Shown here one piece after another: positions 21,605 to 46,477 of a stretch of DNA of 64,000 nt (position 1 is its first letter; every line of letters starts with the position of its first letter). A program made the position numbers and the translations under genes. The stretch covers positions 5,198,001-5,262,000 of the forward strand of contig NZ_RJUU01000001.1 of assembly GCF_003751445.1 (NCBI RefSeq). The letters are read 5' to 3'. The stretch comes from Streptomyces sp. 840.1 (lineage in GTDB: Bacteria; Actinomycetota; Actinomycetes; Streptomycetales; Streptomycetaceae). The notes under the pieces were generated by a model. The model was not told where the DNA came from. It did no database searches and saw only the letters and a list, made by a program, of their open reading frames with translations.

Positions 21605-22417
21605 CTACCAGTCTGACAAGGGCAGCGTGCCCACAGTGAGGAAGAACGTGACGGCATAGGTAAAGCGACCTGCGTGCACGGCATCGTCGAACTGAGCCAC
21701 GAACCGGTCGGCGTCCACGGTGTGGAGGTACCCCCGGTCTGCGGCGGCGTGGGCCCAGGTCCGCAGGCCCATGACATTGTCGGCCGCCGACGGGTCGCGC
21801 ACGACCAGAGTCCGGGCTTCCACCATGATGTCGTGGATGCCGCGGGCCGCGAGCAATCCGGCGTGCCGGTGGGCCAGGGAACCGTTGCGCAGGCCCACGT
21901 CCGCCCTGAAGCGCAGCACCCGGCGGGCTAGCTCTTGGTCGTCGATGTCGAGTACCTGAGTGTCGTAGTCCGGGTCTGCCAAGGCAACCCGGCCGCCGGG
22001 GCGCACCACCCGCACCATCTCATCTAGCAACCGGGCCGGTTCGACGACGTGCTGCAAGACCCGGTCCGCCCAGGCGCCGTCGAACTGACCTGCTGAGAAC
22101 GGCAGCCGGTGCCCGTCCGCGACAGCGGCGTGGGACAGTCCTCGGTCCCGTGCCTGCGCGATCATCGTCAAGGAGCTGTCGACCGCGACGACCTCGGCCC
22201 CACTGCCCGAGCGCAGGGCCACAGCGGCGTCCCCGGTACCCGCTCCGATCTCAAGGAACAGCCCGCCGGGCTCGGCCCGCAGAAACTCTTGCAACCGCTG
22301 CTTGTAAGCGGCATAGAAGGGCTCCGCACTTAACCTGTCCAGGATCTGAACCCACTCAGCGGGCCTGGGCTGTGTGTCCACCGACGTGAAACCGTGAGCA
22401 TCACCGTGATCGTTCAT
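21605..22417 (-). CDS. SAM-dependent methyltransferase (class I)
   Basis: 270 aa. Motif I LFLEIGAGTGDAAVAL (about 53-68), an acidic loop VVAVDSS, a motif II region LPFSAGQFDGAWADRVLQHV (about 104-123) and the motif III-like VVRPGGRVALADPDYD show a UbiE/Methyltransf_11-type small-molecule methyltransferase. The C-terminal 100 residues probably form the substrate lid. It is the last gene of the minus-strand array, 61 bp downstream of a dioxygenase gene, so co-transcription is likely but not forced by overlap. Substrate unknown. Confidence 0.85.
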   Translation of the reverse strand: MNDHGDAHGFTSVDTQPRPAEWVQILDRLSAEPFYAAYKQRLQEFLRAEPGGLFLEIGAGTGDAAVALRSGSGAEVVAVDSSLTMIAQARDRGLSHAAVADGHRLPFSAGQFDGAWADRVLQHVVEPARLLDEMVRVVRPGGRVALADPDYDTQVLDIDDQELARRVLRFRADVGLRNGSLAHRHAGLLAARGIHDIMVEARTLVVRDPSAADNVMGLRTWAHAAADRGYLHTVDADRFVAQFDDAVHAGRFTYAVTFFLTVGTLPLSDW

Positions 22418-22478
22418 AGGAGCACGCTAAGCGTGCCAACCAAGCCGGTGGAATTATGCGGTCACAGCAATAGCGCTT

Positions 22479-23330
22479 CTAGGCCGCACCGGAAGTCCAC
22501 GGGCCGGTCTGCCACCAGGAGCGGATGGGTGCGGCTCCGCTGCCTTTGGCGAGCGATCCGTCCGGTCGGCGGTCGGGTAGGCCCAGGAGCTGCTGCTCGA
22601 TGGGGGTGAGGGCGGGGTTTTTCCGGAGGTCTGTGGTGGGGTCGTCGACGAGGTGGAGCCAGCGGTATCCGTACTGGAGCATGAGGGCGATGCGAGGGCG
22701 GCCGGAACGGTTGATGCCTCCGGTGTGCCAGGTGCGGTTCTCGAAGAGCACTGCGTCGGTTCCGGTGATGTGGGGGGTGGTGGCGCCGGGTGGGTCGATG
22801 GCGCCGGCGGGGACGACGGGCTCTTCGGTGAGGCGGTGGCTGCCGGGGAGGAACATGGTCAGCCCGCAGTCGGGGGTGACGGGGGTGAGGTAGTGGGCGG
22901 CTTTGATGGCCATGCGGGGGGTGTGGGGGAATCCGAGGTCGGCGGTGACGCCGTACATGTCGCGGTGCCAGCCGTGGCGTTCGGGGATGCGGATGGTGCG
23001 GGGCGGGCCGCTGGGCAGGGCGATGAGGTGGGCGGAGAGCAGGTGGATGTTCGGGCTGAGGAGCCGGACGACGGTGGGCAGGACGGCCGGGTTGGCGAGG
23101 AGCGGGAGGAAGGCGCGGTCGAGGTTGAGGCATCCGCGGAAGCCGTCCTTGCCGTCGCCTCCTCGGTCGCGGCCCTGGGTGATGTCGCTGGCCAGCAGCT
23201 TCTCGGCGGCGGTCAGGAGCCGGTCGCGCAGGTCCGGGGTGATTGCGTCACGGATGACCGCGTACCCGTCGCGTTCGAAGGCGTCGAGGGTGCTGGCGTC
23301 GGGGGCGGCGGGCGGCGACGGGGTGCTCAT
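22479..23330 (-). CDS. Phytanoyl-CoA dioxygenase (PhyH)-family oxygenase
   Basis: 283 aa from ATG 23328-23330, which overlaps the stop of the phosphoketolase gene (ATGA). Fe(II)/2-oxoglutarate features are the typical opening FERDGYAVIRDAITPDLRDRLL, the iron-binding HxD in HGWHRDMYGV (about 131-140), and the distal His in LFENRTWHTGGINRSGRPRIAL with the 2OG-binding Arg. Such enzymes hydroxylate, desaturate or halogenate small molecules. It is paired with a second family member at 26102-26872, suggesting two oxidative steps in one pathway. Confidence 0.85.
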   Translation of the reverse strand: MSTPSPPAAPDASTLDAFERDGYAVIRDAITPDLRDRLLTAAEKLLASDITQGRDRGGDGKDGFRGCLNLDRAFLPLLANPAVLPTVVRLLSPNIHLLSAHLIALPSGPPRTIRIPERHGWHRDMYGVTADLGFPHTPRMAIKAAHYLTPVTPDCGLTMFLPGSHRLTEEPVVPAGAIDPPGATTPHITGTDAVLFENRTWHTGGINRSGRPRIALMLQYGYRWLHLVDDPTTDLRKNPALTPIEQQLLGLPDRRPDGSLAKGSGAAPIRSWWQTGPWTSGAA

Positions 23331-25444
23331 GCCGATAGCTCCTTCGGGGGGTCGGTGAGGGTGGTGGCGAGCTGCCACAGACCGGCGTCGTCGAGGCCGC
23401 AGAGTCGGCGGAGGTGTTCCTGGGAGACGGGGCGGCCGGGGTCGCGGTAGCCGAGGACGGTGAGCCGCGGCCCGGGGTGGCGGTGGCCGAGGAGGGCGTG
23501 GATGTCGGCGGGGTGTCCGCTGGTGGCCAGGACGATCGGCGCTTGGGTGCCGAAGTGGCGGGCGAACGCGTCCAAGCCGAGGGCGAGGGGGCGGGTGCCG
23601 TTCTCGGCGAGGGCCGTGAGGTCGTGGACGTGGACGTACCGCAGGCGCAGGCCGGGGCGTTCGTCGCGGAGTCGTCGGGCGAGGGTGGTCAGGGCCTCGG
23701 CGGGCAGGTCGCCGGCGGAGGCGAGGATCAGGTCGGGTTCGCCGGGTCCGGGGTGGGTCAGGTGGGGCCAGGTCGCGATGCCGTGCCGCAGTTCCTCGTC
23801 GAGGGTCTCCTGCGGGTGGTGGACGGTCGTGTGCTTGCCGGCGACGACGATGGTGCACCGGTCGAGCTTGCGCAGGGCGAAGGTGAGCGCGGCGGCGGTA
23901 CGCGCCGGGTCGGCGGGGGTGAGGACATGGAGCGTGGGGTCGCCGCCGGCCAGTAGTGCCGAGGTGAGGCTGGGGTTTTGGTGGGTGATCGTGTTGTGCC
24001 AGCTCAGGCTGGTCAGGAGGTAGACGAGGCTGGGTAGCGGTGCGAGCCCGGCGTGCCGGCGCACGGAGCGGTGCTTGAGCTGCTGCTGGATGAGGCTGAG
24101 GGTGATGGGCGCGAACGCCTCGTAGGTGGCGACGAGTGCGTGGCGGCCGGTCTCCGTGTAGCCCTGGGCCCAGGCGTGGCAGAGCTCCTCGTTGAGCACT
24201 TCCACCGCCCAGGGCACCGGGCGTCCGTGCTCGTCGGTGAGGTCGAGGCGGTTGGAGGCCAGCTCGTCGGGGCTGAACACCCGGAACGGTCCCTGCTCGG
24301 CACGGGCCCGCAGGACCTCGGGGACCACCTGCGCGAACGGGCGGCCGGCGGCGTATCTGGCGACCTGGGTGGAGGCGGCGACGCATCCGCGCGGCGCCGG
24401 GAGGCCGTCGGGCTCGGGCCGGGGCAGTGGGAGCGCGGGGAGCAGGTGCGGTCGGGGCCGGCCGCTGGGGGTGAGGAGCTGGGTGGGCTGGTAGGAGGCC
24501 AGCCAGTCGGAGAGCGCGTCGAACTCGGCGGGTTGGGCGGCCGGGTCGCGCAGCGGTGTCTTGTGGACCGCCGGGGTGCCAGCGAGGTGGGCGGGTGTGC
24601 CGTGGCCTTTGTCCAGGGTGAGGACCAGGACGCTGGAGGGTTCCGGAATGCCCAGGGGCTGGGCGGTGCAGAGCGCTTCGGCCACCGCTTGGCGGAGCTG
24701 GTGGATGTCGAGGCCGTCGCTGTAGACGGGCCGGTGGCCGAGGCCGGTGAAATAGGCGGTGAGTTCGGCGCGGCTCAGGGTGGACAGCACGCTCGGCCCG
24801 CCCATGCGCATCCCGTTGAGCAGGACGACGGGAAGGACGGTGCCGTGGTCGCCCGTACCGTGCAGCGCGCGGGTGGCGATCCAGGATGCGGCGGTTGTCC
24901 CGGTCTCGCACTCTCCGTCGCCGATCAGGACCACGGACAGCCGGTGGGGCGCGTCGAGGACGGTTCCCTGCCCGATCGCGAGGGCGGGGCCGAGTTGGCC
25001 TCCGGTGTGCGGGTGGCCGGGGATCATCGGGGTGATCTCCCCACCGATGTCGGCTCGGGGGAAGCCGACGACCAGTTCGCGCAGCCCGGCGGCGTCCTGG
25101 TGCAGGTGGGGGTAAGCGTGGCCGAGTTGGCCGGTGAGGTAGGCGTGGGCGAGGGCGGAGGGTCCGGCGTGTCCGGCGCCGTGCAGGACGTGCAGCTCGT
25201 AGTCGTCGGGGACGGCCGCCTGGAGCGGGCCCAGGGCGGCGAGTATCCGGTTGACGGGCGGGCACACCCCCCAGTGGCCGGATGGTCGGGTCTTGACGTC
25301 GGCCGGGGTCAAGGGCCGGGCCAGAAGCGGGTTGTCGCGGAGATAGAGCTGGGCGAGACAGAGGTAGTCGAGCGCGTCGGCGACGGCGGCCACCGAAGCG
25401 TCGGGCACCAGGCGGTTCGTGCGGCGGGCGAGGTCAGCCCACAT
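23327..25444 (-). CDS. Phosphoketolase-like TPP enzyme (XFP family)
   Basis: 705 aa, slightly shorter than usual phosphoketolases (about 790). Phosphoketolases split xylulose-5-P or fructose-6-P to acetyl phosphate. Family landmarks: LRDNPLL, GHWGVCPPVNRILAAL, HGAGHAGPSALAHAYLTG, TPP motif GDGECETG with a downstream LLNG, EVLNEELCHAWAQGYTETGRHALVATYEAF (matching the catalytic Glu region), and THQNP near the substrate site (SHQDP in classical enzymes). The start ATG 25442-25444 is chosen over 25489 because AGGAGA lies 6 bp upstream; it overlaps the YrdC-like gene by 11 bp. Location inside a biosynthetic-looking operon suggests a specialised substrate. Confidence 0.85.
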   Translation of the reverse strand: MWADLARRTNRLVPDASVAAVADALDYLCLAQLYLRDNPLLARPLTPADVKTRPSGHWGVCPPVNRILAALGPLQAAVPDDYELHVLHGAGHAGPSALAHAYLTGQLGHAYPHLHQDAAGLRELVVGFPRADIGGEITPMIPGHPHTGGQLGPALAIGQGTVLDAPHRLSVVLIGDGECETGTTAASWIATRALHGTGDHGTVLPVVLLNGMRMGGPSVLSTLSRAELTAYFTGLGHRPVYSDGLDIHQLRQAVAEALCTAQPLGIPEPSSVLVLTLDKGHGTPAHLAGTPAVHKTPLRDPAAQPAEFDALSDWLASYQPTQLLTPSGRPRPHLLPALPLPRPEPDGLPAPRGCVAASTQVARYAAGRPFAQVVPEVLRARAEQGPFRVFSPDELASNRLDLTDEHGRPVPWAVEVLNEELCHAWAQGYTETGRHALVATYEAFAPITLSLIQQQLKHRSVRRHAGLAPLPSLVYLLTSLSWHNTITHQNPSLTSALLAGGDPTLHVLTPADPARTAAALTFALRKLDRCTIVVAGKHTTVHHPQETLDEELRHGIATWPHLTHPGPGEPDLILASAGDLPAEALTTLARRLRDERPGLRLRYVHVHDLTALAENGTRPLALGLDAFARHFGTQAPIVLATSGHPADIHALLGHRHPGPRLTVLGYRDPGRPVSQEHLRRLCGLDDAGLWQLATTLTDPPKELSA

Positions 25445-26087
25445 GCGGTTCTCCTGCCGGGGTGAGAGCGGCTTCGACTGCGCGGGCATGGACGGTGCCT
25501 TCCCGCTCCAGGCGCGCGGCGGCGCCCGAGGGGCAGTCGACGATGGTCATGTGGCGGCCGTGCGGGCAGATCCCGCCGTCGATGACCGCGGCGATTCCGG
25601 CCGCCGTGGTCCGCTGGAAGGCGGAGACCTGGCCGGCGGTGAGCGCCGGGTGGTCTGCGTCTCCGGCGGCGGGGGTGGAGATGCTGCACACGGCGGCGGC
25701 CAGCGGTTCGCCGGCCAGAGCGACGAGCTGGCCCAGGATCCCGTCGGGGCATCCAACGAGCGCGGGGGAGCCGACCGCCGCGATGGGCTCGGTGCCCTGC
25801 TTCCATGGAAGCCGCAGCGCGAGGTCCCCCGGCCACAGACCGCGGGCCAGCAGGCGTGCGTCGCCGCTCAGGTTGAACAAGGTCTCGGCCGTGGCTGGGG
25901 AGTCGAGCAGGAGCAGCAGCGGTTTGGCTGTGGGGCGCTGCTTCGCGCGGAAGACCGTGCTGGTGGCCGCAGGGTCGGCGGCACGGGCGCACAGCATGTA
26001 CCAGCGGGGCGAAGGCACGGCGACCACCTGCCCGGCGGCCAGGAGCTGGACCGTGTCGGGGAGCTGGGTGGGGGTGAGAACGTCCAC
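25434..26087 (-). CDS. YrdC/Sua5-like carbamoyl-adenylate domain protein
   Basis: 217 aa from GTG 26085-26087 (AAGGGA upstream). It resembles threonylcarbamoyl-AMP synthase: VAVPSPRWYMLC (in place of the P-T-[DE]-T-Y strand), FRAKQRPTAKPLLLLL (the KxR...KPL nucleotide-binding lysines) and VIDGGICPHGRHMTIVDC (GG...ST-V-D region). The usual SSAN-x-SG motif is replaced by ICSISTPAAGD. Housekeeping Sua5 makes the tRNA t6A precursor; a divergent copy within an enzyme operon more likely activates or carbamoylates a pathway intermediate. That role is inferred. Confidence 0.75.
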   Translation of the reverse strand: MDVLTPTQLPDTVQLLAAGQVVAVPSPRWYMLCARAADPAATSTVFRAKQRPTAKPLLLLLDSPATAETLFNLSGDARLLARGLWPGDLALRLPWKQGTEPIAAVGSPALVGCPDGILGQLVALAGEPLAAAVCSISTPAAGDADHPALTAGQVSAFQRTTAAGIAAVIDGGICPHGRHMTIVDCPSGAAARLEREGTVHARAVEAALTPAGEPHVG

Positions 26088-26101
26088 GGTGATCTTCCCT
26101 T

Positions 26102-26872
26102 TCACACGGTGTTGGGGCGGGCGAAGGTGGCGAGCGCGGGGTACTCCAGCCACGGGTCCGACAGGGCGCGCAGGGCGAGATCGGGGTGCTGGGCGTGGCT
26201 GACGCGGAAGTACGCCATCACCCTGGGTGTGCTGCTGGTGTTGAGGCCGACCCGGTGCGGGACGAGGTGGTGCATCACGACCACGTCGCCGGGCTCGGCG
26301 GTGAGGGCGATGCCGTCCTGGGCGTCGATGTCGTTGGGAGTCTGGGCCGGCTGTCCCAGGACCCAGTCCGTGGCGAAGTAGCGGGCCATCCGGCGGTGCC
26401 CGCCGGGCACGTAGTGCAGAGCGCCGGCGTCCGCGGTGGCGCTGCCGTCCAGGACGATGCCGACGATGAAGGTGAACGTGCGCAGGTCGCGCGGTTCCAG
26501 GTGGGGGCAGGAGACGCCGTCGACGTGCATCGTCTTCACCGGCTGCTGCGCGCCGTCGGGTAGCCGGACCTGGATCTGCGCCCGGGTGACGGGGGCCGTG
26601 GTCGCCGGACTTATCAGGTCTCCGGCCAGCTCTGCCAGGCCGCTTCGCTGGTAGAGGGCGAGGAGGTCTGGGTGTTCTTCCAGCTCGGGCGCGAAGCTGC
26701 GTTCGGTGTAGGCGGCGAGCCGCGCGGGGTCGTACGCCTCGTTCAGCCAATCGCCGATGAGGTCGCGGGCCTGGGACACGAGGTCGCCGTGGATCAGGCC
26801 ACGGCGTATGAGAACGCCGTCGTCGATGAATCGGCGCCGATCTTCGTCGTTCCACGTCACGGGTCGGGACAT
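26102..26872 (-). CDS. PhyH-family 2-oxoglutarate dioxygenase
   Basis: 256 aa from ATG 26870-26872 with AGGAG upstream. It opens with DRRRFIDDGVLIRRGLIHGDLV, the family start. The iron site is HxD in VKTMHVDGVSCPHLEP (about 114-129) and the distal His in VVMHHLVPHRVGLNTSSTPRVM (about 196-217) with its Arg. It is related to but clearly distinct from the PhyH protein at 22479-23330. It lies 14 bp upstream of the YrdC-like gene. Likely performs one oxidation in the operon's pathway; product unknown. Confidence 0.85.
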   Translation of the reverse strand: MSRPVTWNDEDRRRFIDDGVLIRRGLIHGDLVSQARDLIGDWLNEAYDPARLAAYTERSFAPELEEHPDLLALYQRSGLAELAGDLISPATTAPVTRAQIQVRLPDGAQQPVKTMHVDGVSCPHLEPRDLRTFTFIVGIVLDGSATADAGALHYVPGGHRRMARYFATDWVLGQPAQTPNDIDAQDGIALTAEPGDVVVMHHLVPHRVGLNTSSTPRVMAYFRVSHAQHPDLALRALSDPWLEYPALATFARPNTV

Positions 26873-26948
26873 GGTGGATCTCCTTCCGGAAGGACGGAAC
26901 TGGGCCGGGGCGGCAGGGGAGCCGCCCCGGCAAGGGGCAGGGGTCGGG

Positions 26949-27728
26949 TCAGCCGCGCCGGCCGAGGACGACCTGGAAGGATGCGTGCTCGATCAGGCCG
27001 CCGGCTGCGGCGTGCCTGTCGAGCAGAGCGCGGGCGCGGTGCTCGAAGTCGTCGACTCGCTCGCCGAACAGCGGCCGGGCGGCGAAGGAGGTCGAGTACA
27101 GGTAGCCGATTACCGATTCGGTGCTCCACTCCCGCTCGATGGCGATGGTGTGCTCCTCGACCTGGCCGAAGGCGGACTCGGCGAGGATTTCGCTGTACGG
27201 CCGGTCGTGCGCCGCGTACTTCTTGCCGACTCCGGCCTGCCGCTCCTGGCCCAGGTACTCCTGGATCAGGGCCCGCAAGGCGTCGGTCCATTCGGTGCGT
27301 GCGGTCCACAGACTGCCGTCGCCCATGACCGCGACGGTCGCGTCCGGTGCGGTCATGTCCTCCAGACGCGACAGCACCACGTCCTGGTCCATCCAGTGGA
27401 AGGCGCGGCAGACCGTGACGAGGTCGGCCCGGTAGGAGGCGGGCGGGGCGAACTCCTCGGCCGGCGCGTTGTGCAGCCGGACGGTGACCGGCAGACCGGC
27501 GAGAGCCTTGTTGGCCTCGCCGAGCATGCCCGGGTCCTGCTCGACGACGTCGATCTCCGTCACCTGTCCGGCCAGGGCCAGGGGGACCTGCCCGGTGCCG
27601 GACCCGAGGTCGAGCAAGGCCCGGTGTTCCTTGCCGGCCACCCGATGCGCGAGCAGCTCGACGGCTTCCTTCGGGATGCCGGGCCGGTAGGTGGCGTAGT
27701 ACGGGGCGGTGGTGTCGAACTGACTCAC
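26949..27728 (-). CDS. SAM-dependent methyltransferase
   Basis: 259 aa from GTG 27726-27728, overlapping the HAD gene stop (GTGA). The opening SQFDTTAPYYATYRPGIPKEAVELL is typical of UbiE-like enzymes. Motif I is ALLDLGSGTGQVPLALAG, and an aspartate-containing second strand IDVVEQDPGM and DLVTVCRAFHWMDQ follow. Small-molecule O-, N- or C-methylation is expected. The longer in-frame reading to 27881 is rejected because it overlaps the HAD coding region. Confidence 0.85.
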   Translation of the reverse strand: MSQFDTTAPYYATYRPGIPKEAVELLAHRVAGKEHRALLDLGSGTGQVPLALAGQVTEIDVVEQDPGMLGEANKALAGLPVTVRLHNAPAEEFAPPASYRADLVTVCRAFHWMDQDVVLSRLEDMTAPDATVAVMGDGSLWTARTEWTDALRALIQEYLGQERQAGVGKKYAAHDRPYSEILAESAFGQVEEHTIAIEREWSTESVIGYLYSTSFAARPLFGERVDDFEHRARALLDRHAAAGGLIEHASFQVVLGRRG

Positions 27729-28426
27729 GATGTAGCGCTCCTGGTGATGCGGGTTGACGGGAGGAGGGTTTGCTCGATGTGTCGGACCGCGTGGGCGAGG
27801 TCCGGAACGACCGTGACCTGGCCGGGGTGCTCGGCCAGCAGTCGGATCTCTTTGGCCGTCGGCGGGCGCGAGGTGATCCACAGGGCCTGCGCTTCGGCGG
27901 CGAGGGCGCCGTGCACGTCGTAGTCGAAGCTGTCGCCTACGTGCAGAACCTCCGCGGGATCGCGGCCGTGCAGTCGAGCGACAGTCTGCACAGCAGCCGG
28001 GTCAGGTTTGGCGAACCCGAGCTGCCACGACGGGTAATGGGCTTGGAGGTGGGGGGCGAGGAGGGCGGCGACGTCGGTCTCCCGTTCGTCCCAGTGGCTC
28101 ACATTCGACAAGGTGACCACCGGTAGGACTCGGGCGATCCGTGCCACCGCCTCCACCGCGCCGGGCCACAGGGCGAAGCCGGGCGGACGGTGATCGTGGG
28201 GGAAGGCGGACGCTGCAATGCCCAGGGCGGCGCACACGCTCTGCGGTCCGGTCGCGTCGCTGCGCGGGTCCAGGGCGTGCAGGATCTGCTGGGCGATCTG
28301 CTTCGCCTGCCGGGCCGGTAGCGGGGACAGTTCCACCAGGCGCTGCGTCAGCGTCGTCCCGGACGGCTCGCCCAGGGTGTATCCGACGTCGAGGCTCACC
28401 AGCCGCACGAGTGGCGCCGGGCTCAC
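27725..28426 (-). CDS. HAD-superfamily hydrolase-like protein
   Basis: 233 aa from GTG 28424-28426, overlapping the upstream stop (GTGA). HAD motifs: I is SLDVGYTLGE (nucleophile Asp kept, but the +2 acid Asp of DxDxT is Gly), II VTLSNVSHW (Thr/Ser), III lysine in LGFAKPDPAAV, IV VGDSFDYDVHGALAA. The cap domain lies between I and II. Loss of the +2 Asp argues against a standard phosphatase; dehalogenase-like or altered chemistry is possible. It acts within the operon, perhaps on a phosphorylated or activated intermediate. Confidence 0.8.
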   Translation of the reverse strand: MSPAPLVRLVSLDVGYTLGEPSGTTLTQRLVELSPLPARQAKQIAQQILHALDPRSDATGPQSVCAALGIAASAFPHDHRPPGFALWPGAVEAVARIARVLPVVTLSNVSHWDERETDVAALLAPHLQAHYPSWQLGFAKPDPAAVQTVARLHGRDPAEVLHVGDSFDYDVHGALAAEAQALWITSRPPTAKEIRLLAEHPGQVTVVPDLAHAVRHIEQTLLPSTRITRSATS

Positions 28427-31029: not shown

Positions 31030-31130
31030 GGAGACTCCAACTTGGCGGTGAGCGGTGGGGTGTTGTACCCGGTGGCGCGGCACCTACGTTGTGCCGAGGG
31101 AGGGCGTCGGCGGTGTGGCAAATGCGCCGC

Positions 31131-32303
31131 CTACTTGGTCGGCGCGAAGGCAGTGAAGTGGGTCGGCGGGTGGTCGATGGCCAGGTCGGGTCGCCATGCG
31201 GTGAGGATCTGGGCGCTGCATTCGAACAGGCCGTCGGGAAGCTGATCGAGAGGGTGCCAGGCCCAGTCGCCGATGCTCTCGTCCGGTTGTGTGGCCGGTT
31301 GCCCCTGCCAGGCGTGGACGAGCGCGCCGACGGTCACCCGCAGGATGCCTTCGACGTGGTCGACGAGCGTGCCCAGGAGCCTGACGTCGCCGGGGCGGGC
31401 GATCAGGCCGGTTTCCTCACTGAGTTCGCGGACCGCGGTCTGTTCGAAGGACTCGCCGGCCTCGACGGTTCCGCCGGGCAGTTCGAGGGTGCCGCGACGA
31501 TGACGGCCGAGGAGGAGCCCCTGCTCGCTGACGAGGATGGCGCCCACGCCGACGGCGGCGTGCGCCACCGGCGGCCGGGTGCTGCGAGGGCGGCTGGAGA
31601 CCCGCGCCGGCCGGTCGGGAAGGCGCCGGGCGCGGATGAGCTGCTGGACGACTGCGGCGCTCTCGTCGGGGTGCGGGAACAGATCGATGGTCTCGACGCG
31701 GAAGCCGTACTCGGTGAGCAGGTCCTCCCACAACTGTGGTGCCAAGACCCACATCTGTGTGGGCAGGGGCGGGTCGTCGCGCATCAGGATCATCTGCTCG
31801 CGCGGCGCTACCTCCGTGGACGGGCCGCGGCCGTGCAGGTCGGTGTGAAGGAGCGAGAGAATCAGCGGGGCTCCGGGACACAGCCCGTCGCGCAGCGCCG
31901 GCAGCGAGTGGTGCGGGTCGATGAAGGCGAGCGTCCCGATCGCGTACGCGGCTTCGAAGGGCTCGGTTTCGTTCAGGCAGCTGACTACGTCTCCCTGGAG
32001 GAACTCCGTACCTTCGACGTCCGCGTGGGTGGAGATGGCGCGTTCGTGCTGGGTCGGAGAGAGTTCGATCCCGGTGACGCGGGCTCCGCAGGCTTGGGCG
32101 ACGTGAACCGCGTGGTGGCCGGCTCCGGAGCCGACGTCCAAGACACGGCGCCCGGTGATGTCACCAAGGACTTCGGCTCCCGGTCCGACCCCGTCCCAGG
32201 GCGTCCAGGCGAGCTGCTCGGGGATGGGCGGGGTGTAGGCACGGGCCAATTGGCGCTGACCGTAGGTCTGCCAGGCCCGGGTGTTGGTCTCCTCGACGGG
32301 CAC
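31131..32303 (-). CDS. Methyltransferase-NUDIX fusion protein
   Basis: 390 aa from GTG 32301-32303, five bases after AGGAGG; the longer reading to 32378 lacks such a site. Residues 1-225: class I methyltransferase with motif I RRVLDVGSGAGHHAVHV (about 50-66), TGIELSPTQHERA and AYAIGTLAFIDPHHSLP. Residues about 245-390: NUDIX domain with a perfect box GGTVEAGESFEQTAVRELSEETGL. The junction is a Pro/Arg-rich linker (ARRLPDRPARVSSRPRSTR). Such a fusion would pair methyl transfer with hydrolysis of a pyrophosphate-linked compound. It is one of four NUDIX genes in this operon. Confidence 0.85.
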   Translation of the reverse strand: MPVEETNTRAWQTYGQRQLARAYTPPIPEQLAWTPWDGVGPGAEVLGDITGRRVLDVGSGAGHHAVHVAQACGARVTGIELSPTQHERAISTHADVEGTEFLQGDVVSCLNETEPFEAAYAIGTLAFIDPHHSLPALRDGLCPGAPLILSLLHTDLHGRGPSTEVAPREQMILMRDDPPLPTQMWVLAPQLWEDLLTEYGFRVETIDLFPHPDESAAVVQQLIRARRLPDRPARVSSRPRSTRPPVAHAAVGVGAILVSEQGLLLGRHRRGTLELPGGTVEAGESFEQTAVRELSEETGLIARPGDVRLLGTLVDHVEGILRVTVGALVHAWQGQPATQPDESIGDWAWHPLDQLPDGLFECSAQILTAWRPDLAIDHPPTHFTAFAPTK

Positions 32304-32377
32304 GATTGCCTCCTGAGTGGGCGGGTGTTCGGGGGTCAGGTATGTGTGATCAGGTAGACGGGCCCCGCGCCGCGCCA

Positions 32378-32632
32378 TCAGCTGCTGCCATGTCGCGAGG
32401 TCGTGGACGGCGATGCTTGCGCGGCGGTGTCGTGTTCCCTGAGCACGTTCCGGCGGATCACGTCCTGGCCGACGATCGGGATTCCGCGGCCGTGGTGATC
32501 TCGCAGGCCCTGGGCCACGCTTGACTCGCCTGACGCCGAGTTGCCGCGAATCAGCACGAGGCGGGTGCCCTCACGGCCGACCGCAGTCGCGGTGGACAGA
32601 CGACGGAGTGAGCCGCTCGGTGTGCCGCTCAC
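32378..32632 (-). pseudogene. Truncated P-loop kinase remnant
   Basis: 84 codons from GTG 32630-32632, overlapping the triple-NUDIX stop (GTGA). It reads LVLIRGNSASGESSVAQGL, the P-loop of an AAA/zeta-type small-molecule kinase, but the essential Walker A lysine (GNSASGKSS) is Glu. QDVIRRNVLREHDT follows, then the sequence leaves the family and stops about 100 residues early. The intact start and coupling suggest a gene that recently lost its 3' part and its function. Confidence 0.7.
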
Positions 32633-34119
32633 GCGGGCCAGCCCGTCTCGCTGTACAGCTCCCCGTTCCGGATCTTTTCGATGGCCGCTCGGGTGTAGGG
32701 GACGAGGTTGTCGGGGAGCGCGGCAGGATCCCAGAATTTCCACTGGGTGCACTTGTCCGGCTCGCGTAGCTCTGGCTCGCCGCTCCAGGCGCGGGCGCGG
32801 AAAAACAGGCCCATGCGGGGCCGGTCCCCGGCCTTGTCGATGTGGTGGACGATGTGGACCAGCTCGACATCCTGGCGCTCGATACGCAGACCAGCTTCCT
32901 CCCGCACCTCCCTGATCAGGGCGGAGATGGCGCTCTCCTGCTCGCAGTGGCCGGCCAAGGCGTGCCAGGTGGAGGGCGCGAACGCGGAGTTGGGGTGGCG
33001 TAGCCCGAGCAGCACCGTTCCGTCGGGCCGCTCCAGGTAGAGGTGGACGCCGATGACGTTGAGGACTGTGCCGTGCGGTGAAGCTCGGTGCTCCTCCTGC
33101 GGTGCGCGCCCGCTCTGGGGCGCGGTGTTGGCCGGGCTGCTGGCGGCGTGGCGGCGTACGAGGTCGCTGGTGGTGTCCGCGATACGCAATCGATGGAGGT
33201 CGTCGGGGGCGAACCAAGCGAGCATGACCCCTTCCGTCAGGTGGAGTTCGCGGGGATCACCGTTCCAGCGGCTGGCGTAGATGGCGATGGGCACGGTCGC
33301 GCCGGCATCGTCGGAGGCGTACTCGGTGCCGACCGGCGTCAGGGCGGAGAGGTGGAGGCCGGCTTCCTCGGCCAGTTCGCGCCGCGCGGTGTGCTCCAGG
33401 GTGGCGTCCTGGGGCTCTCGGCCGCCGCCCAGCAGCGACCACATGCCCGGCTCCCAGATCTGGCCGGGGAAGTAGTCGCGCAGATGGAGCAGGTACTCGC
33501 CGCGGTCGTTGTAGATCAGGGCCGAGGCGTTGGCCGCCTCCGGTTCAGGTCCAACCTGGAGCGGTAGCTTGAGGAGCTTCTCGCGCAGGGTCGGGGAGGA
33601 CACCCGGTCCGCGGAGCGCCACTCGATGCCGCCCACCTCTTCCTCCTGCAGCACCACCGGCACTTCGTCCGCGGTGTGCAGACGGAAGAGGAATCGCAGG
33701 TCGAAGTGGACGTGTCCGGGCTCGCCTTTGCTCGGGCGGGCGTCCATGTCGTGAATGTCGATGTCCAGCGGCACGGTTTCGTAGCCGGGCCACGGCGTGA
33801 CGGCCTGGGGTGCGATCCCGGTCTCCTCGTGCAGCTCCCGCAGCGCCGCTGCTGCCAGGGACTTGTCGGAGAGCTCCGTGTGTCCGCCCGGGGGGAGGAC
33901 CTTCCCGCTCGCCAGGTGCAGCACGTGCAGGACGTGGCCGAGCGGGTCGATGATGATTGCGGCGCAGGTGACGTGCCCGGTGAAGGTGGAACGGCTGGCG
34001 ATATCGTCGCCGGCCCGATCGAGGGCGGCCAGGAAGGCGCCGAGCTGCTTGCGCTCGTGAGGGTGGCGCGCGAGATAGGTGTCGACGGTGGTGCGGATGT
34101 GGTCGTGCGACAGCGGCAT
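32629..34119 (-). CDS. Triple-NUDIX-domain protein
   Basis: 496 aa with three NUDIX domains. Boxes: GGHTELSDKSLAAAALRELHEETGI (about 77-101), GGGREPQDATLEHTARRELAEEAGL (about 231-255) and AGHCEQESAISALIREVREEAGL (about 386-408). The third box is one residue short between the first Gly and Glu. Domain 3 ends EPDK...W...LVPYTRAAIE..NGELYSETGWP, very like the end of the single-NUDIX protein at 37327, so these are duplicated copies. Three such domains in one chain is rare. Expected activity is hydrolysis of nucleoside diphosphate-X compounds; substrate unknown. ATG 34117-34119. Confidence 0.9.
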   Translation of the reverse strand: MPLSHDHIRTTVDTYLARHPHERKQLGAFLAALDRAGDDIASRSTFTGHVTCAAIIIDPLGHVLHVLHLASGKVLPPGGHTELSDKSLAAAALRELHEETGIAPQAVTPWPGYETVPLDIDIHDMDARPSKGEPGHVHFDLRFLFRLHTADEVPVVLQEEEVGGIEWRSADRVSSPTLREKLLKLPLQVGPEPEAANASALIYNDRGEYLLHLRDYFPGQIWEPGMWSLLGGGREPQDATLEHTARRELAEEAGLHLSALTPVGTEYASDDAGATVPIAIYASRWNGDPRELHLTEGVMLAWFAPDDLHRLRIADTTSDLVRRHAASSPANTAPQSGRAPQEEHRASPHGTVLNVIGVHLYLERPDGTVLLGLRHPNSAFAPSTWHALAGHCEQESAISALIREVREEAGLRIERQDVELVHIVHHIDKAGDRPRMGLFFRARAWSGEPELREPDKCTQWKFWDPAALPDNLVPYTRAAIEKIRNGELYSETGWPA

Positions 34120-34176
34120 GGGGCTACCTCAGAGGTACGTGGAGCGGGACGAGTCGAGGCGGGGTGGTCGTTCGGG

Positions 34177-35316
34177 TCAGCTCAGCCGCATCCCCTCCGG
34201 GGGGATCTCCTCGATGGCGGCGGCGCGAGCGCTGGGCAGGCCCCATCGCTCCCGTGCTGTCTCCACCGCGAGCTGGGCTTGCCGCGCTCCGGGCGGTCCC
34301 CAGCCCAGCAGGGCGGCTGCCTGGGCGGGAGTGGCGAGCAGGCGTGCGAAGGGTCGGCCGGTGGCGGGGTCGACGGCCGCCGGCCCGATGGCGGTGACCG
34401 GGGCGGCCAGGCGGAGCCGGGCGTTGGGCCCCACCCCGCCGTAGACCTCGCCGGTCTCGTCCAGCACCCACCCCAGGCGTACCGGTTCGGTCAGAGTGAG
34501 TTGGGCTTCCTCGGCGGCTTCCCGATGGAGGGTGTCCTCGGGGGTGGCGTCAACCTTCTCGACGGTGCCGCCGGGCAGCATGGGCAGCGCGCCTTGAGAC
34601 CCGGGATCGGCAACGAGCACTACCCTGCCGTCGGGGACGAAGCACCACGCCCAGGCTTGCTGCACGGGGAGCTGACCGGGCACGGGGGTCCGGTTCAGAG
34701 GGCTGTCCCACATGGGGCGGTAGCGGACGTGGACGTCATGGTGATCGAGGGCCGGTACGTCGAGGATGTGCCGGCCGTCGGCGAGGTGGGCGGTACCGGC
34801 GCCGCCGAGGCGGGCACGGTAGGCGGCGAGCATGATCTGCCCGTCCACGGGGAGCAGACGGTGCACCGCGTCCCTGGTCTCGAAGAAGGCGAAATCGGAA
34901 AGTTCCTTGGGAGGCAGACGGATCGCCTGTACCTCGTCGGGAGTGAGGGTGCCGCCGTCGAAGATGTAGCGGATCTCTCCGGGACAGGGCATGCCGGGCT
35001 TGATGTCGGGGTGGTGCGGTGAAAGGGAGTGGATGGCGAGAACGTCCGGCAGGGCCAGGTCCTGGAGGCCCAGTTCCTCGGCGATCTCGCGCCGGCAGGC
35101 GTTCAACGGGTGCTCGCCGGGTTCGGCAGCGCCCCCGGGCAGCAGCCACCGGTCGTCCTCGCGGTAGGTGGGATTCACCAGCAGGACCCGGCCGACCTGG
35201 TCGGTGACGATCGCGGCGGCGCTGAGCCACACCGCGTGGCGGGACGCGGCGTACTGCGCGTCCGAGAGGGCAGCCTTCGGCGGGACGTGATCAGAAGGCG
35301 AGACGGAAGAGGCCAC
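34177..35316 (-). CDS. Double-NUDIX-domain protein
   Basis: 379 aa from GTG 35314-35316. Domain 1 has a perfect box, GGAAEPGEHPLNACRREIAEELGL (about 57-80). Domain 2 has GGTVEKVDATPEDTLHREAAEEAQL (about 244-268), where the first Glu is Asp and the final Gly is Gln, so its catalysis may be weakened. The C-terminal 100 residues (VTAIGPAAVDPATGRPFARLLATPAQAAALLGWG) are conserved-looking but unassigned. The gene lies between the exporter and the triple-NUDIX gene. The longer reading to 35832 is antisense-like extension into the exporter and is rejected. Confidence 0.85.
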   Translation of the reverse strand: MASSVSPSDHVPPKAALSDAQYAASRHAVWLSAAAIVTDQVGRVLLVNPTYREDDRWLLPGGAAEPGEHPLNACRREIAEELGLQDLALPDVLAIHSLSPHHPDIKPGMPCPGEIRYIFDGGTLTPDEVQAIRLPPKELSDFAFFETRDAVHRLLPVDGQIMLAAYRARLGGAGTAHLADGRHILDVPALDHHDVHVRYRPMWDSPLNRTPVPGQLPVQQAWAWCFVPDGRVVLVADPGSQGALPMLPGGTVEKVDATPEDTLHREAAEEAQLTLTEPVRLGWVLDETGEVYGGVGPNARLRLAAPVTAIGPAAVDPATGRPFARLLATPAQAAALLGWGPPGARQAQLAVETARERWGLPSARAAAIEEIPPEGMRLS

Positions 35317-35341
35317 GGGCTCTGCCTTTCGGTGGGGCGGG

Positions 35342-37330
35342 TCATGCCTTGTCTGCGACGCTGGGTGAAGCAGGCTTGGGGATGTGCGGGGTCGGGGCGT
35401 ACTGGGCGGCCTGTGTGTCGAACATGGCTGCATATCGGCCACGTGCGGCGATGAGGTCGTCGTGTGTGCCGTGTTCGGCGAGGCGCCCTTGGTTGAGGAC
35501 GTAGATGTGGTCGGCGTGGCGGACGCCGGACATCCGGTGGGTGACCAGGACGACGGCCCGGTGCGGGGCGGCGAGGCGGCGGATGCGGTCGAAGGCAGCG
35601 ATCTCGGCTTCGGGGTCGAGCGCGGAGGTCGGCTCGTCAACGATGAGGACGCTGTCCGCCTGCGATGTTGAGCTGCGCCAGTGGGTGCGGGCCAGGCCGA
35701 CCTTCTGCCATTCGCCGCCGGAGAGTTCGATGGCTCCGCGGAACATGCGCCCGAGCATGCTGTCCAGGCCGTTGGGGAGTTTGGCGGTGACGGATCCGGC
35801 GCCGGCGTAGTCGACCGACGTCTGCAGGTCATGCATGGAGGCGACGTGCCCGGGGCGGCCGATGCGGATGTTCATCGCGGCGGTCACGGGCCACCGTTGG
35901 AAGTCCTGGGTGAGGAGCGAGACGCGGTCGAAGACCTGGGAGCGCTCCAGCCCGGAGACGTCGAACTCACCCCACCTCACGGATCCGGCGTGAGGGAGGA
36001 GCAGACCGGAGAGGATCTTCATCAAGGTGCTCTTGCCGGAGCCGTTTTCACCCACCACGGCGATGACCGACCCCATGGGGAAGGTGAGCGTCACGTCGTC
36101 CAGGGCCGGTGCGTCGCGGTCGGGATACTGGTAGGTGACGTGCTCCAGGGAGACCTGCCTGACTTGGTCGGGGACGGGGCTACCGGTCCGCGGGATAGCG
36201 CGTTGAGCGGCCTCGATCAGGAACTGTCCGTGATCGCGGACGTAGAGGGACTCCTCGTGCAGCTGGTTGATATTCATCACCAGTGCGCCCAGGCTCGCCG
36301 AGCCGGTCCGTACCGCGATCACGGCAGTGCCGGCGACGGCGAGGCTCATGTGTCCGGCCATGATCAGCCAGATCATGGTGCCGTAGGTGGCGGCCATCGC
36401 CAGCCCGGACAGCGCGGAGGCGACCCATTCGGTGACGGCCTTGCTGGAGGCCAGCCGCTCCTGCTCCGATTCCGCGCTCGCGGCCATGCGCCGGTACCGC
36501 TCAAGGAGGAAGGGGCCGACGGCGTGGATTCGCACTTCTTGCGCGGCGGTGCGCTCGGTGAGGAGGTTGCCGATGAGGCGGCTGGCCCGCTGGTGCTCGA
36601 TCCAGCTCATCACGGATACGTAGCGTTCCTGCGCTACTCGCATGGCGCCCCATCCGCGGGGGGCTGCGATAACTAGCAGCATCGGCAGGAGGGTGGGGTT
36701 CAGGACGGTGAGGACGCCCGCTGTGGCGATCAGTGAGATGGTGCTGTTCAGCGCGGAGACGCAGGCGCCGATCATGCGGCGGGCAGAGGCGGGCCCGTAC
36801 TGGGCGATGTCGATCAGGCGGCGGAAGTCCGGATCGTCGATGGCTTCGAGTTCGACCGAGGTTGCGGCGGCCAGGTACTGCGTCGTGGCGATCCGCTCCA
36901 CAACCGGTTCGAGGCGTCCCGCTCGGGATGTCGACCAGCCGGCCAGAGCGGAGTTCACGACGGCGACGCCTGCGGCGGCGAGCAGCCCCGGCAGGAGGGC
37001 GTGCAGCCGGTCGACCGTGTCGCCGGCCCCCAGCAGCGCGTGCATGACCGCGTTGATGGCGAGGAGGCCGACCGCGGCGGCGATGCCCTGGCCGAGTTCG
37101 CTGACCGCCACGGCGACGAGTGCTCGGCGATCCGCACTCCAGGCCATCCGCAGGGTGGCGCTGACGAGTCCGGGCATCTGGCGCAGGGCCGAGCGCATGG
37201 TCAAGTCCAGGCGGGCATGTTCGTGTTGGGACCAGCCCATGTCGTAGCGCAGGGGCCCGCCGAAGAGTTCTCGCTCTGCGTCGGAGACCTGTGGCTCCGC
37301 CACGCGGACCTTGCCGAAGAATCGCTTCAC
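35342..37330 (-). CDS. ABC exporter, fused membrane/ATPase half-transporter
   Basis: 662 aa from GTG 37328-37330, overlapping the NUDIX stop (GTGA). The N-terminal membrane domain (about 50-370) has hydrophobic segments such as LGQGIAAAVGLLAINAVMHAL, LLPGLLAAAGVAVVNSAL and LISLIATAG. The ATPase domain has Walker A VVGENGSGKSTLMK, Q-loop LLTQDFQRWPV, signature IELSGGEWQKVGLA, Walker B SVLIVDEPTSALD and H-loop VTHRM. It probably works as a homodimer exporting the operon's product, or a peptide. It is closely related to the partial ABC protein at the window's left edge. Confidence 0.9.
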   Translation of the reverse strand: MKRFFGKVRVAEPQVSDAERELFGGPLRYDMGWSQHEHARLDLTMRSALRQMPGLVSATLRMAWSADRRALVAVAVSELGQGIAAAVGLLAINAVMHALLGAGDTVDRLHALLPGLLAAAGVAVVNSALAGWSTSRAGRLEPVVERIATTQYLAAATSVELEAIDDPDFRRLIDIAQYGPASARRMIGACVSALNSTISLIATAGVLTVLNPTLLPMLLVIAAPRGWGAMRVAQERYVSVMSWIEHQRASRLIGNLLTERTAAQEVRIHAVGPFLLERYRRMAASAESEQERLASSKAVTEWVASALSGLAMAATYGTMIWLIMAGHMSLAVAGTAVIAVRTGSASLGALVMNINQLHEESLYVRDHGQFLIEAAQRAIPRTGSPVPDQVRQVSLEHVTYQYPDRDAPALDDVTLTFPMGSVIAVVGENGSGKSTLMKILSGLLLPHAGSVRWGEFDVSGLERSQVFDRVSLLTQDFQRWPVTAAMNIRIGRPGHVASMHDLQTSVDYAGAGSVTAKLPNGLDSMLGRMFRGAIELSGGEWQKVGLARTHWRSSTSQADSVLIVDEPTSALDPEAEIAAFDRIRRLAAPHRAVVLVTHRMSGVRHADHIYVLNQGRLAEHGTHDDLIAARGRYAAMFDTQAAQYAPTPHIPKPASPSVADKA

Positions 37331-37797
37331 TCGCTGTCTCCCTGTGTCGGCCAGTTCAGAGCCCGGTAGGACGGGCCGTGGGTGAGCATGCGGAAGACGG
37401 CGGTGGTGTACGGGTGGCAGTCCGGCGGGGGCTTCTCCAATGGCACCCAGAACAAGTCCTCGTGCTTGTCCGGCTCGGCGTTGTGCGGCTCGCCCGCCCA
37501 CGACTGGGCGACGAAGACCGCGGTGATCCGGTCCGGGCCGTCGCCGGGGTCATGGTGGTGAATGAGGCCGCAGAACTCCTGTTGCCCGGCGCCGATGCGG
37601 ACCCCCGTCTCTTCCTCTGCTTCGCGCCGCGCGGCGTGGTCGAGGGTTTCGCCCGCTTGCAGATGGCCACCCACGACGGTGAGCTGACCCGGTGCGAGGG
37701 CCGCGTCCGGTCTGCGACGTACGCACAGGGCGGCGCCGTTCGCGCGGAGCAGGACCTGGGCCACGTCGGCGATCAGCAGGTGAGGCGCGTCGCTCAT
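37327..37797 (-). CDS. NUDIX hydrolase (MutT-like)
   Basis: 156 aa. Box GGHLQAGETLDHAARREAEEETGV at about residues 42-65, a perfect G-x5-E-x7-RE-x2-EE-x-G. The tail EPDKHEDLFWVPLEKPPPDCHPYT...YRALNWP parallels domain 3 of the triple-NUDIX protein. The start overlaps the kinase stop (ATGA) and its stop overlaps the exporter start, so expression of the kinase, NUDIX protein and exporter is coupled. Confidence 0.9.
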   Translation of the reverse strand: MSDAPHLLIADVAQVLLRANGAALCVRRRPDAALAPGQLTVVGGHLQAGETLDHAARREAEEETGVRIGAGQQEFCGLIHHHDPGDGPDRITAVFVAQSWAGEPHNAEPDKHEDLFWVPLEKPPPDCHPYTTAVFRMLTHGPSYRALNWPTQGDSE

Positions 37798-38669
37798 AGA
37801 CGGCCGTCCTGCACCAGGCGTTCGACGGTACGCCGGCCGCGCGCGGTCACGAGCGGGTCGCCGTGCCGGGGGCCGTAGACCAGAGCGCTGGCGGCGTCAG
37901 CTGCTGCGAACGCTGTCAGCGCACATTCCTCTGACTCGGACAGAGGCCGGCCGTATCCCTCGAACAGGGCGGTCCGCAGTTCGGGATGATCTGGCCACAG
38001 CGAGGTGGCGAGTCTGACGAAGTCCGTGACGCGGGGGCCCGGTTCGCTGCGCTCGAAGTCGATCAATACGCAGCGCCGGCCGTTCCAGAGCAGGTTGCGT
38101 TCCCAGAAGTCCCCGTGCCGCCACCCGGCCGGTAGCGGTTCGCACCCGGGCAGCCCGGTCACCAGGTGCCGCAGAACGTTGGCTTCCGTAGTGGACATGT
38201 GTTCGCGGGCCTCGGCGAGGTGCTTGTCCAGGCCGGCCACCGTGTTCTCGATGACTGCGCTGGCTTCCGGTTGGCTGAGGGGGCCGGTCATCGCGTCGTG
38301 GAAGCGGCGCAGGAGCTGGCCGGCTTGCCGGTGGGCCGTACGTCGGCGCGGTGGTGACTCCTCTTCCTTCAGCGGCTGACCGTCCACGGCGGTCAGGATC
38401 AGGGCGAGCAGCTGCGCGGAGCTGTCCCGCAGCTGCGGGGCGTTGCTGTGCCCGAGGTGAGGAACGGCCTCCCGGTAGGCGCGGGTCTCGCGCGTGTAGA
38501 GGATCGGCCCCGGCGCCACCTTCACGAAGTGGGCGCCCGCGGGGCCGGTCACCCTCCACACCTGGGAGTTGGCGCGGTCGTGCGAGGAGTCCCGCACATC
38601 GTCCAAGGGGCCCAGCACGCTCTCCACCCAGGCGTGGAGGGGCGAGGGAAGGCGAGCCGATTCCGTCAC
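37794..38669 (-). CDS. Aminoglycoside phosphotransferase-family kinase
   Basis: 291 aa from GTG 38667-38669. The kinase catalytic loop GWRHGDFWERNLLW (HxDxxxxN, about 183-196) and the metal-binding VLIDFERSEPGPRVTDF (DFE) are intact. The N-lobe has FVKVAPGP (ATP-contact lysine) and the CHK-like TRETRAYREAVPHL. It may phosphorylate a pathway intermediate or confer self-protection by modifying the product. Its start overlaps the stop of the 47-aa peptide gene (GTGA). Confidence 0.85.
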   Translation of the reverse strand: MTESARLPSPLHAWVESVLGPLDDVRDSSHDRANSQVWRVTGPAGAHFVKVAPGPILYTRETRAYREAVPHLGHSNAPQLRDSSAQLLALILTAVDGQPLKEEESPPRRRTAHRQAGQLLRRFHDAMTGPLSQPEASAVIENTVAGLDKHLAEAREHMSTTEANVLRHLVTGLPGCEPLPAGWRHGDFWERNLLWNGRRCVLIDFERSEPGPRVTDFVRLATSLWPDHPELRTALFEGYGRPLSESEECALTAFAAADAASALVYGPRHGDPLVTARGRRTVERLVQDGRL

Positions 38670-38809
38670 GCCAGGGACCTCATATCCGGTCGTGAACCGT
38701 CGGCGAGCAGGGCGCGGCGGCCGGAGGCGAGGTGAAGGCTGGCACCCGAGGAGGCGGCGGTGTTTTCGAACGCAGGATGAACGAGCGCAGGGCGGCGTAC
38801 GGGATGCAT
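38666..38809 (-). CDS. 47-aa peptide at head of NUDIX-rich operon
   Basis: ATG 38807-38809 with GAGGAG 6 bp upstream, one of the best ribosome-binding sites in the region. The stop overlaps the kinase start (GTGA), so it is translated and coupled. The peptide starts MHPVRRPALVHPAFENTAAS and continues SGASLHLASGRRALLADGSR. It has no signal peptide, cysteines or hydrophobic helix. It might be a leader controlling translation of the operon, a ribosomally made precursor for modification by operon enzymes, or a small regulatory protein. I cannot choose between these. Confidence 0.65.
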   Translation of the reverse strand: MHPVRRPALVHPAFENTAASSGASLHLASGRRALLADGSRPDMRSLA

Positions 38810-46403: not shown

Positions 46404-46477
46404 AGGGGTCGCTCCAGAAGAGGAAGGGCCATTGGATGCCGACGGGCACCCAGGAACGTGGAGGGGAAGGAAGTGGT

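Follow-up and report, generated by a model that had tools for sequence, protein, structure and literature searches.

The operon considered here lies in a window of 64,000 nucleotides from Streptomyces sp. 840.1 (contig NZ_RJUU01000001.1, positions 5,198,001 to 5,262,000; coordinates below are those of the window, that is, of the whole stretch analysed). It is organised in two parts, a conserved core at 22479-31029 and, upstream of it, an exchangeable block of NUDIX, exporter and kinase genes. The core is best read, with somewhat more confidence than doubt, as a copy of a mobile cassette for specialised metabolites that circulates in actinobacteria, and the operon probably makes a small molecule from what we infer to be a phosphorylated sugar or a nucleotide. 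The cassette reading draws on a conserved neighbourhood, plasmid-borne copies, correlated sequence identities, a sparse distribution, catalytic residues that are largely kept and a predicted fold, and on the presence of separate, far better-scoring phosphoketolase and Sua5 genes in the same genome. Repeated fusions of an OmdA-like domain, and the employment of NUDIX proteins by nucleoside pathways (TubG, Pur7), also speak for it. Three architectures (types A, B and C) of the cassette can be recognised, and their core members are a radical S-adenosylmethionine (SAM)-fold enzyme (rSAM), an enolase-superfamily protein (MRE), a small OmdA-like protein (g27), a HAD-family hydrolase, a phosphoketolase homologue (XFP) and a methyltransferase, nearly always accompanied by a PhyH-type dioxygenase.

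The distribution of the core was scored on five genes (rSAM, XFP, MRE, HAD and methyltransferase), with the rSAM protein as bait. Matches to rSAM were found in 20 of 295 Streptomyces genomes, that of strain 840.1 included, and in this genome and ten of the other 19 all five genes occur together (XFP of locus L036 being covered to 75%). The remaining matches are a locus cut by a contig end (L022), one without XFP (L027), one consisting of rSAM and an MRE remnant (L033), and six with only a piece of rSAM (18-86%), one of these with a sliver of PhyH, within the 20 kb read and with displaced copies not sought. Among named GTDB contigs, some of which belong to the same genomes as the genus set, at least 30 loci match rSAM; 27 of the matches listed cover at least 95% of the query and three are fragments. 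All five core genes lie no more than 10 kb apart in 25 of the 27 full-length loci listed (XFP of L067 at 75%), the two exceptions being L061, which runs off its contig, and L066, which is without XFP and HAD. The HAD gene is present in 26 of the 27, as is the core methyltransferase, which is missing only from L061 at its contig end. The homologues of the core are therefore not scattered; scattering is what the first-pass annotation had named as a refutation of its proposal.

Genera with the cassette are Streptomyces, Actinoplanes, Salinispora, Nocardia, Saccharopolyspora, Geodermatophilus, Actinomadura and Streptacidiphilus, yet across the class rSAM matches are confined to five of 394 genomes and four of 137 genera (strain 840.1 and one genus relative included). 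Eight plasmid records also match, seven of them over at least 80% of the protein. The identities of the five core genes are correlated over 29 loci (r 0.81-0.97, with none of 500 permutations as high for any of the ten pairs), a correlation to which the relatedness of the loci alone adds. This set, on which the trees and the NUDIX counts given below are also based, left out duplicates of genomes already represented (L024, L026, L029, L031, L036, L069, L071), the contig-limited L022 and L061, L027 with no XFP, L072-L076, decayed or fragmentary loci (L025, L032, L033, L037-L041, L066, L068), and L047 and L049, whose gene calls are fragmentary although tblastn finds the full set. The recurrence of the core in other genera, together with the concentration of NUDIX genes at this place (eight of the 38 genome-wide matches in 8.84 Mb lie in the window stretch and 30 elsewhere), argues that the gene set is more than a chance assembly.

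The gene order is rSAM-MRE-g27-HAD-methyltransferase-PhyH24-YrdC-XFP-PhyH21 in type A, to which the window belongs, rSAM-XFP-MRE-g27-HAD-methyltransferase-creatininase-PhyH24-YrdC in type B, and rSAM-MRE-HAD-(GGDEF and g27 fused)-XFP-PhyH21-methyltransferase in type C. Types A and B have PhyH24, YrdC and a free-standing g27 in common, and types A and C have PhyH21 adjoining XFP; PhyH21 does not occur in type B, nor PhyH24 in type C. Mean identities of A to B and of A to C are 0.61 and 0.42 for rSAM, 0.42 and 0.28 for MRE, 0.38 and 0.26 for HAD, and 0.48 and 0.29 for the methyltransferase, whereas XFP reverses this order, with 0.53 for A to C and 0.42 for A to B. In an XFP tree rooted on the other phosphoketolase of the same genome, A and C fall into a single clade (100/98.8), whereas a grouping of A with B is rejected (p-AU, the approximately unbiased test, 0.0075); for this tree the program warns of two long branches, those of B and of the outgroup, joining each other. 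Trees of the other core genes were built without an outgroup. Once C is a clade, an unrooted tree sets A and B apart from it trivially, and the case for a mosaic therefore rests on the rooted XFP tree, the identities and the gene content. The window core is most simply regarded as such a mosaic, in which XFP and PhyH21 would derive from a different branch than the rest.

Two plasmid copies, L072 on pNF1 of Nocardia farcinica and L074 of M. intracellulare, are C-like and sparse; no PhyH gene was found in either, and L072 carries two further radical SAM genes instead. The L072 copy also includes a second methyltransferase, with a nucleoside hydrolase and pyrF in its surroundings. In the B-type loci L046-L048 of Actinoplanes and Salinispora a gene of the acetamidase/formamidase family is found near the core, and in L047 and L048 an amino-acid permease gene, the copies scanned for both families being those of L048.

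The rSAM protein has no Pfam or NCBIfam match, and a PDB sequence search returned a single chance-level row (E 0.62). The predicted structure is nevertheless a TIM-barrel-type radical SAM fold, with Foldseek/VIA matches to lipoyl synthase, biotin synthase and MqnE, which bears out its first-pass description as radical-SAM-like. In place of the canonical CX3CX2C motif it has CX2CX2C, whose cysteines (C131, C134 and C137) are invariant, together with C183, in 74 sequences. The protein can be described as a radical-SAM-fold enzyme with putative [4Fe-4S] binding and SAM cleavage. A literature search combining CX2CX2C with radical SAM led to passages on ferredoxin motifs.

The XFP product exceeds the gathering score in all domains (XFP_N 200.7, XFP 98.4 and XFP_C 70.9 bits) and falls below the NCBIfam phosphoketolase cut-off (518 against 777 bits for the best model), and the genome holds a separate phosphoketolase that scores 552.7 bits for XFP_N, compared with 199.3 for the cluster protein. 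Among cluster copies with letters at these positions GHWG is kept in 28 of 28, GxGH in 29 of 29 and HxxP in 29 of 29, residues to which we presume catalytic roles; the full set of canonical active-site motifs is not found in the copies. The YrdC protein is likewise distinct from the other Sua5 genes of the genome (172.7 and 160.6 bits, against 61.5) and lies below the TIGR00057 cut-off (62.6 against 123.2). The loop TETVYGL, which we take to bind substrate, is replaced by xxRWYM in 20 of 20 cluster copies, and the SAN motif, presumably also functional, is changed to TAN, TVN, TIN or CSI, so that the loop and SAN signature of TsaC/Sua5 is absent.

The metal ligands and the Asp-His dyad that we assume for MRE (D186, E212, E239, D262 and H289) are conserved, and of its KxK motif the first lysine is kept and the second lost. 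Both dioxygenases retain HxD...H and an arginine: H122, D124, H202 and R213 of PhyH21 are conserved in 14 rows, and H116, D118, H206 and R217 of PhyH24 in 22. The HAD protein has the motif D7-x-G9-x-T11, and its NCBIfam matches, which are REG-2-like and nucleotidase-like, are all below cut-off.

The g27 protein is predicted to fold into a beta-barrel with three helices; it has no Pfam match, and in a PDB fold search with the model no match reached E 0.001. Matches of nearly full length (E below 1e-50) coincide exactly with the ten of 295 genus genomes in which rSAM is full-length and of type A or B. In three C-type genus genomes the match is confined to the C-terminal half, and the weak matches (E 1e-8 to 1e-3) of 28 further genus genomes all begin at model position 61 or later. 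Homology also links this C-terminal half with the C-terminus of c16, the GGDEF protein of type C (hhalign probability 96), for which a weak OmdA match (E 0.003) was found. A g27-type domain is fused ahead of HAD in L046 and L027, the C-terminal part of g27 stands behind HAD in L074, and the OmdA-like domain is fused to a GGDEF domain, whose motif is intact in 11 of 11 aligned copies, in ten C-type loci of nine genomes. Such repeated fusions point to g27 working with HAD and with a nucleotide-using domain, and would tie the OmdA-like domain to the handling of phosphate or nucleotides.

The first-pass annotation had inferred hydrolysis by NUDIX enzymes, but the comparison of loci does not support NUDIX as the defining chemistry of the operon. 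NUDIX genes occur near six of six A-type, ten of 15 B-type and three of eight C-type loci, as counted over 14-21 kb per locus (35 kb for the window) with a profile partly built from proteins of these same loci. They are enriched at the loci but lie outside the core, and the loci are related and so no independent sample. The NUDIX proteins of A-type and B-type loci are different proteins. Within type A the block is reshuffled, with an FxLD-system methyltransferase, a kinase-peptidase M15 fusion, an ASCH-NUDIX protein and varied exporters, and it outlives the core, persisting where rSAM is a fragment (L032, L037, L038/L069, L068); such persistence would be expected of protection and export genes that were retained, and equally of an independent system. 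Variable presence across loci ruled out NUDIX as the core. In the window, the three-NUDIX protein keeps RExxEE and does not match the strict Nudix box, the first box of the two-NUDIX protein is strict and the second degenerate, and the NCBIfam exporter families matched by the ABC (ATP-binding cassette) exporter score below cut-off. The AAA_33 kinase gene, of which 32345-32629 is an apparent remnant, is whole in L023/L044 as the kinase-peptidase M15 fusion.

Several further observations concern the block. Just past the operon, on the opposite strand, there is an eighth NUDIX gene (21086-21496, plus strand), whose Nudix box is strict, and a homologue 68% identical to it occurs in the B-type locus L031/L059. 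The C-terminal tail EGM(Q/R)LS is common to the two-NUDIX protein and the unrelated FxLD methyltransferase of L024/L044, which in L024 occupies the position of the two-NUDIX gene, as if the gene had been swapped and its 3' end kept. Anti-phage defence was considered and set aside, the PADLOC matches among ten proteins scanned being limited to generic models, for NUDIX (two) and for methyltransferase (one).

From the observed gene set, predicted fold, residues and co-occurrence we infer the following mechanism. XFP and rSAM would build a carbon skeleton from a phosphorylated ketose or a nucleotide-borne sugar: XFP would cut a C2-C3 bond, leaving an activated acyl group, and rSAM would rearrange or couple this unit. 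MRE might then remove a proton beside a carboxylate, dehydrating or epimerising a sugar acid, and HAD, with g27 as its OmdA-like partner, would remove phosphate. The methyltransferase and PhyH enzymes could tailor the product by methylation and hydroxylation, YrdC could provide ATP-dependent activation of a carboxylate or bicarbonate, and the upstream block would export the product, its NUDIX proteins and kinase handling phosphorylated or nucleotide forms in self-protection or late hydrolysis.

A number of points weigh against the cassette reading with this pathway. A three-residue active-site loop is deleted in 28 of 28 XFP cluster copies with letters there, and the histidine of IHEGGELG is kept in six of six A-type, none of 15 B-type and three of eight C-type copies; given these losses XFP may carry out other thiamine diphosphate chemistry. 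HAD is without the second aspartate of DxDx(T/V), a glycine being conserved at position 9, so its phosphatase activity is not certain. The rSAM model is less certain at the motif (predicted local distance difference test, pLDDT, of about 50-68 at residues 121-150), and CX2CX2C might not bind the radical-SAM cluster in the usual manner. The GGDEF domain may be a signalling rather than a biosynthetic one, NUDIX is absent from five of 15 B-type and five of eight C-type loci, and the sequence of steps is a guess.

The principal rival explanation, which we consider rather unlikely, is that GTP or some other nucleotide is converted into a nucleoside or nucleotide analogue, HAD serving as a 5'-nucleotidase and NUDIX and HD pyrophosphohydrolases protecting the producer. 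It would account for the enrichment of NUDIX near A and B loci relative to the 30 other matches of the genome, for HD-domain and second HAD genes beside nine of 15 B cores and the NUDIX gene c10 beside ten of 15, for the intact GGDEF motif, and for the pyrF and nucleoside hydrolase genes that accompany the plasmid copy of Nocardia; NUDIX enzymes also have precedents in TubG of the tubercidin pathway (PMC6112128) and Pur7 of the puromycin pathway (PMC11641026). However, the core gene content holds no nucleoside-core enzyme common to the three types, NUDIX is missing from ten of 29 loci, and the thymidylate-synthase and carbamoyltransferase genes at L033 are neighbours of a decayed copy and not members of it. 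L033, a C-type copy reduced to rSAM and a 12% remnant of MRE, was accordingly rejected as a nucleoside cluster. It is about as doubtful that the NUDIX, exporter and APH genes form a system of their own, unrelated to the core and only its upstream neighbour in type A: the survival of the block beside rSAM fragments and its varying content among A-type loci are what such a system would give, but it shares strand, tight spacing and upstream position with the core in A-type loci, and protection and export genes outlasting a lost biosynthesis would look identical.

Phosphoketolases and sugar-acid dehydratases are usually catabolic, and with the GGDEF domain of type C this could suggest primary or regulatory metabolism, in the form of a carbon-catabolism or cyclic di-GMP-linked module. 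Such a role is quite improbable, as the distribution is sparse, sometimes plasmid-borne and often decayed, and the genome has a separate, canonical-scoring phosphoketolase. Highly improbable is a ribosomally synthesised and post-translationally modified peptide (RiPP), in which the radical SAM enzyme, the methyltransferase, the MftE-like creatininase-type peptidase of type B and the exporter would act on a small precursor. In the one copy scanned, the creatininase of type B comes closest to MftE, below cut-off (134.8 against 172), the FxLD-system methyltransferase of A-type L044 is above its own (385.9 against 320), and small open reading frames (ORFs) are present at 38666-38809 and 38894-38974. 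Yet the window and the named loci together have 1493 small ORFs, and no listed family of these spans types, the widest being overlapping frames in five closely related B loci; those of the window recur only in S. globisporus, no Pfam domain of the RiPP recognition element (RRE) type was found in the core proteins scanned, and it is hard to see what a phosphoketolase or an enolase-superfamily enzyme would do in peptide maturation of this kind.

Within the preferred reading of a mobile metabolite cassette, a bolder proposal can be made only tentatively, and we would bet against it: an unrecognised pathway class, in which an atypical CX2CX2C rSAM enzyme would make the skeleton together with a repurposed XFP that cuts an unusual phosphorylated ketose or a nucleotide-borne sugar, joined by a neofunctionalised YrdC and an OmdA-type phosphatase partner, and which spread with the aid of plasmids in three architectures that exchange XFP-PhyH pairs to change the product.

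Codon-model gene calling gave 16 minus-strand genes at 21605-38627 (extending to 38669 if the last gene is given its longer start), with overlaps of 1-14 nt at eight of 15 junctions (Table 1). Against the 18 frames first proposed, these 16 are supported, together with a weakly supported 47-aa ORF. Other parts of the inventory were confirmed by Pfam, namely the seven NUDIX domains in four proteins (1+3+2+1), the phosphoketolase homologue, YrdC/Sua5, two PhyH, HAD, enolase-superfamily, methyltransferase, ABC and APH proteins, and, as had been noted, the set holds no polyketide synthase (PKS), nonribosomal peptide synthetase (NRPS) or terpene core. Among the compared loci, the methyltransferase at 21605-22417 (cluster c92) is confined to the window and to L042, which is closely related to it.

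Table 1. Genes and features of the operon and its upstream stretch, in window coordinates (AF2, AlphaFold2)
Feature	Position	Strand	Evidence and remarks
Class I methyltransferase	21605-22417	-	Pfam Methyltransf_11 7e-20; accessory
PhyH21, PhyH-type Fe/2-oxoglutarate dioxygenase	22479-23330	-	PF05721 4e-16
XFP, phosphoketolase homologue	23327-25444	-	PF09364/PF03894/PF09363; PDB 8io8 6.4e-87
YrdC, Sua5/YrdC-family protein	25434-26105	-	PF01300 1e-16
PhyH24, second PhyH-type dioxygenase	26102-26872	-	PF05721 2e-11
Core class I methyltransferase	26949-27728	-	PF13649 2e-9
HAD-family hydrolase, core	27725-28408	-	PF00702 8e-9
g27, OmdA-like small protein	28423-28875	-	No Pfam match; AF2 pLDDT 79
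MRE, enolase-superfamily (mandelate racemase/muconate lactonising-like)	28875-29924	-	PF13378 1e-31
rSAM, radical-SAM-fold enzyme	29911-31029	-	Predicted fold; CX2CX2C
Methyltransferase-NUDIX fusion (NUDIX C-terminal)	31131-32303	-	PF00293 2e-20, PF13649; accessory
Apparent AAA_33 kinase gene remnant	32345-32629	-	By-eye reading against relatives; L023 DNA match from 32420
Three-NUDIX protein	32629-34119	-	PF00293 5e-40, 3 stretches; accessory, A-type
Two-NUDIX protein	34177-35232	-	PF00293, 2 stretches; accessory, A-type
ABC exporter, permease-ATPase fusion	35342-37330	-	PF00005 6e-21
Single-NUDIX protein, strict Nudix box	37327-37797	-	PF00293 1e-18
APH-like kinase	37794-38669	-	PF01636 6e-25
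47-aa ORF, weak support	38666-38809	-	Counterpart only in S. globisporus (L024/L044)
Upstream stretch, possible promoter/leader	38745-39005		79% identical in S. globisporus

Within the upstream stretch, a 26-aa ORF (38894-38974) stands behind a plausible ribosome-binding site and is possibly a leader peptide; the S. globisporus version is equal in length and stop, with about half of the residues different. Elsewhere in the window, a gene at 12130-13035, helix-turn-helix-like by eye, has relatives 61% and 55% identical beside the decayed cassettes L032 and L037, hinting at a common chromosomal site. Rfam places the Streptomyces small RNA Scr6925 at 13200-13330 (plus strand), and at 44212-47998, upstream of an acyl-CoA dehydrogenase gene, Pfam identifies histidine-kinase-like ATPase, Roadblock, ATP/GTP-binding and GAF proteins, a set that we take to be conservon-like.

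The undescribed biosynthetic operon of the first-pass annotation has thus stood as a real, coherent and conserved one, with NUDIX not supported as its defining chemistry. Among the matches listed in open-access literature no title or opening of an abstract describes this gene set, subscription papers and MIBiG lying outside the search, and "undescribed" is therefore provisional; nor was a paper on the cluster of hydantocidin, another candidate, among the matches listed. If the cassette reading is correct, this is a new natural-product core that would be missed by class-rule mining on PKS, NRPS, terpene and RiPP signatures, one in which the radical enzyme is of an uncommon kind and phosphoketolase serves biosynthesis instead of sugar breakdown. 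The focus shifts from the NUDIX proteins to the core at 22479-31029, and the three architectures and the mosaic type make a ready comparative design for assigning genes to chemical steps.

Individual features of the operon have counterparts in known systems. The operons of tubercidin (TubG) and puromycin (Pur7) likewise include an exporter along with a NUDIX enzyme, whereas here there are seven NUDIX domains, NUDIX is not conserved with the core, and no nucleoside-building enzyme was found in common. As in mycofactocin, where the creatininase is MftE, a radical SAM enzyme and a member of the creatininase family occur side by side in B-type loci, but no precursor peptide or RRE was found and the window copy is without the creatininase. 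The YrdC protein shares the fold family and the KxR motif of Sua5/YrdC threonylcarbamoyl-AMP synthases and differs in its RWYM loop and altered SAN. Like the phosphoketolases of PDB 8io8 and 3ai7, XFP has three domains and GHWG, GxGH, HxxP, SNRL-type and (T/S)HxxP motifs; in contrast to them, it is 705 aa long (796-845 in the PDB rows), has lost the three-residue loop before the HN motif, scores below NCBIfam cut-offs and sits in a biosynthetic operon. The rSAM protein, finally, is about 9-19% identical in aligned rows to lipoyl synthase, biotin synthase, MqnE and HydG, from which it is set apart by its CX2CX2C spacing, its beta-rich N-terminal part and its lack of a Pfam or NCBIfam family.

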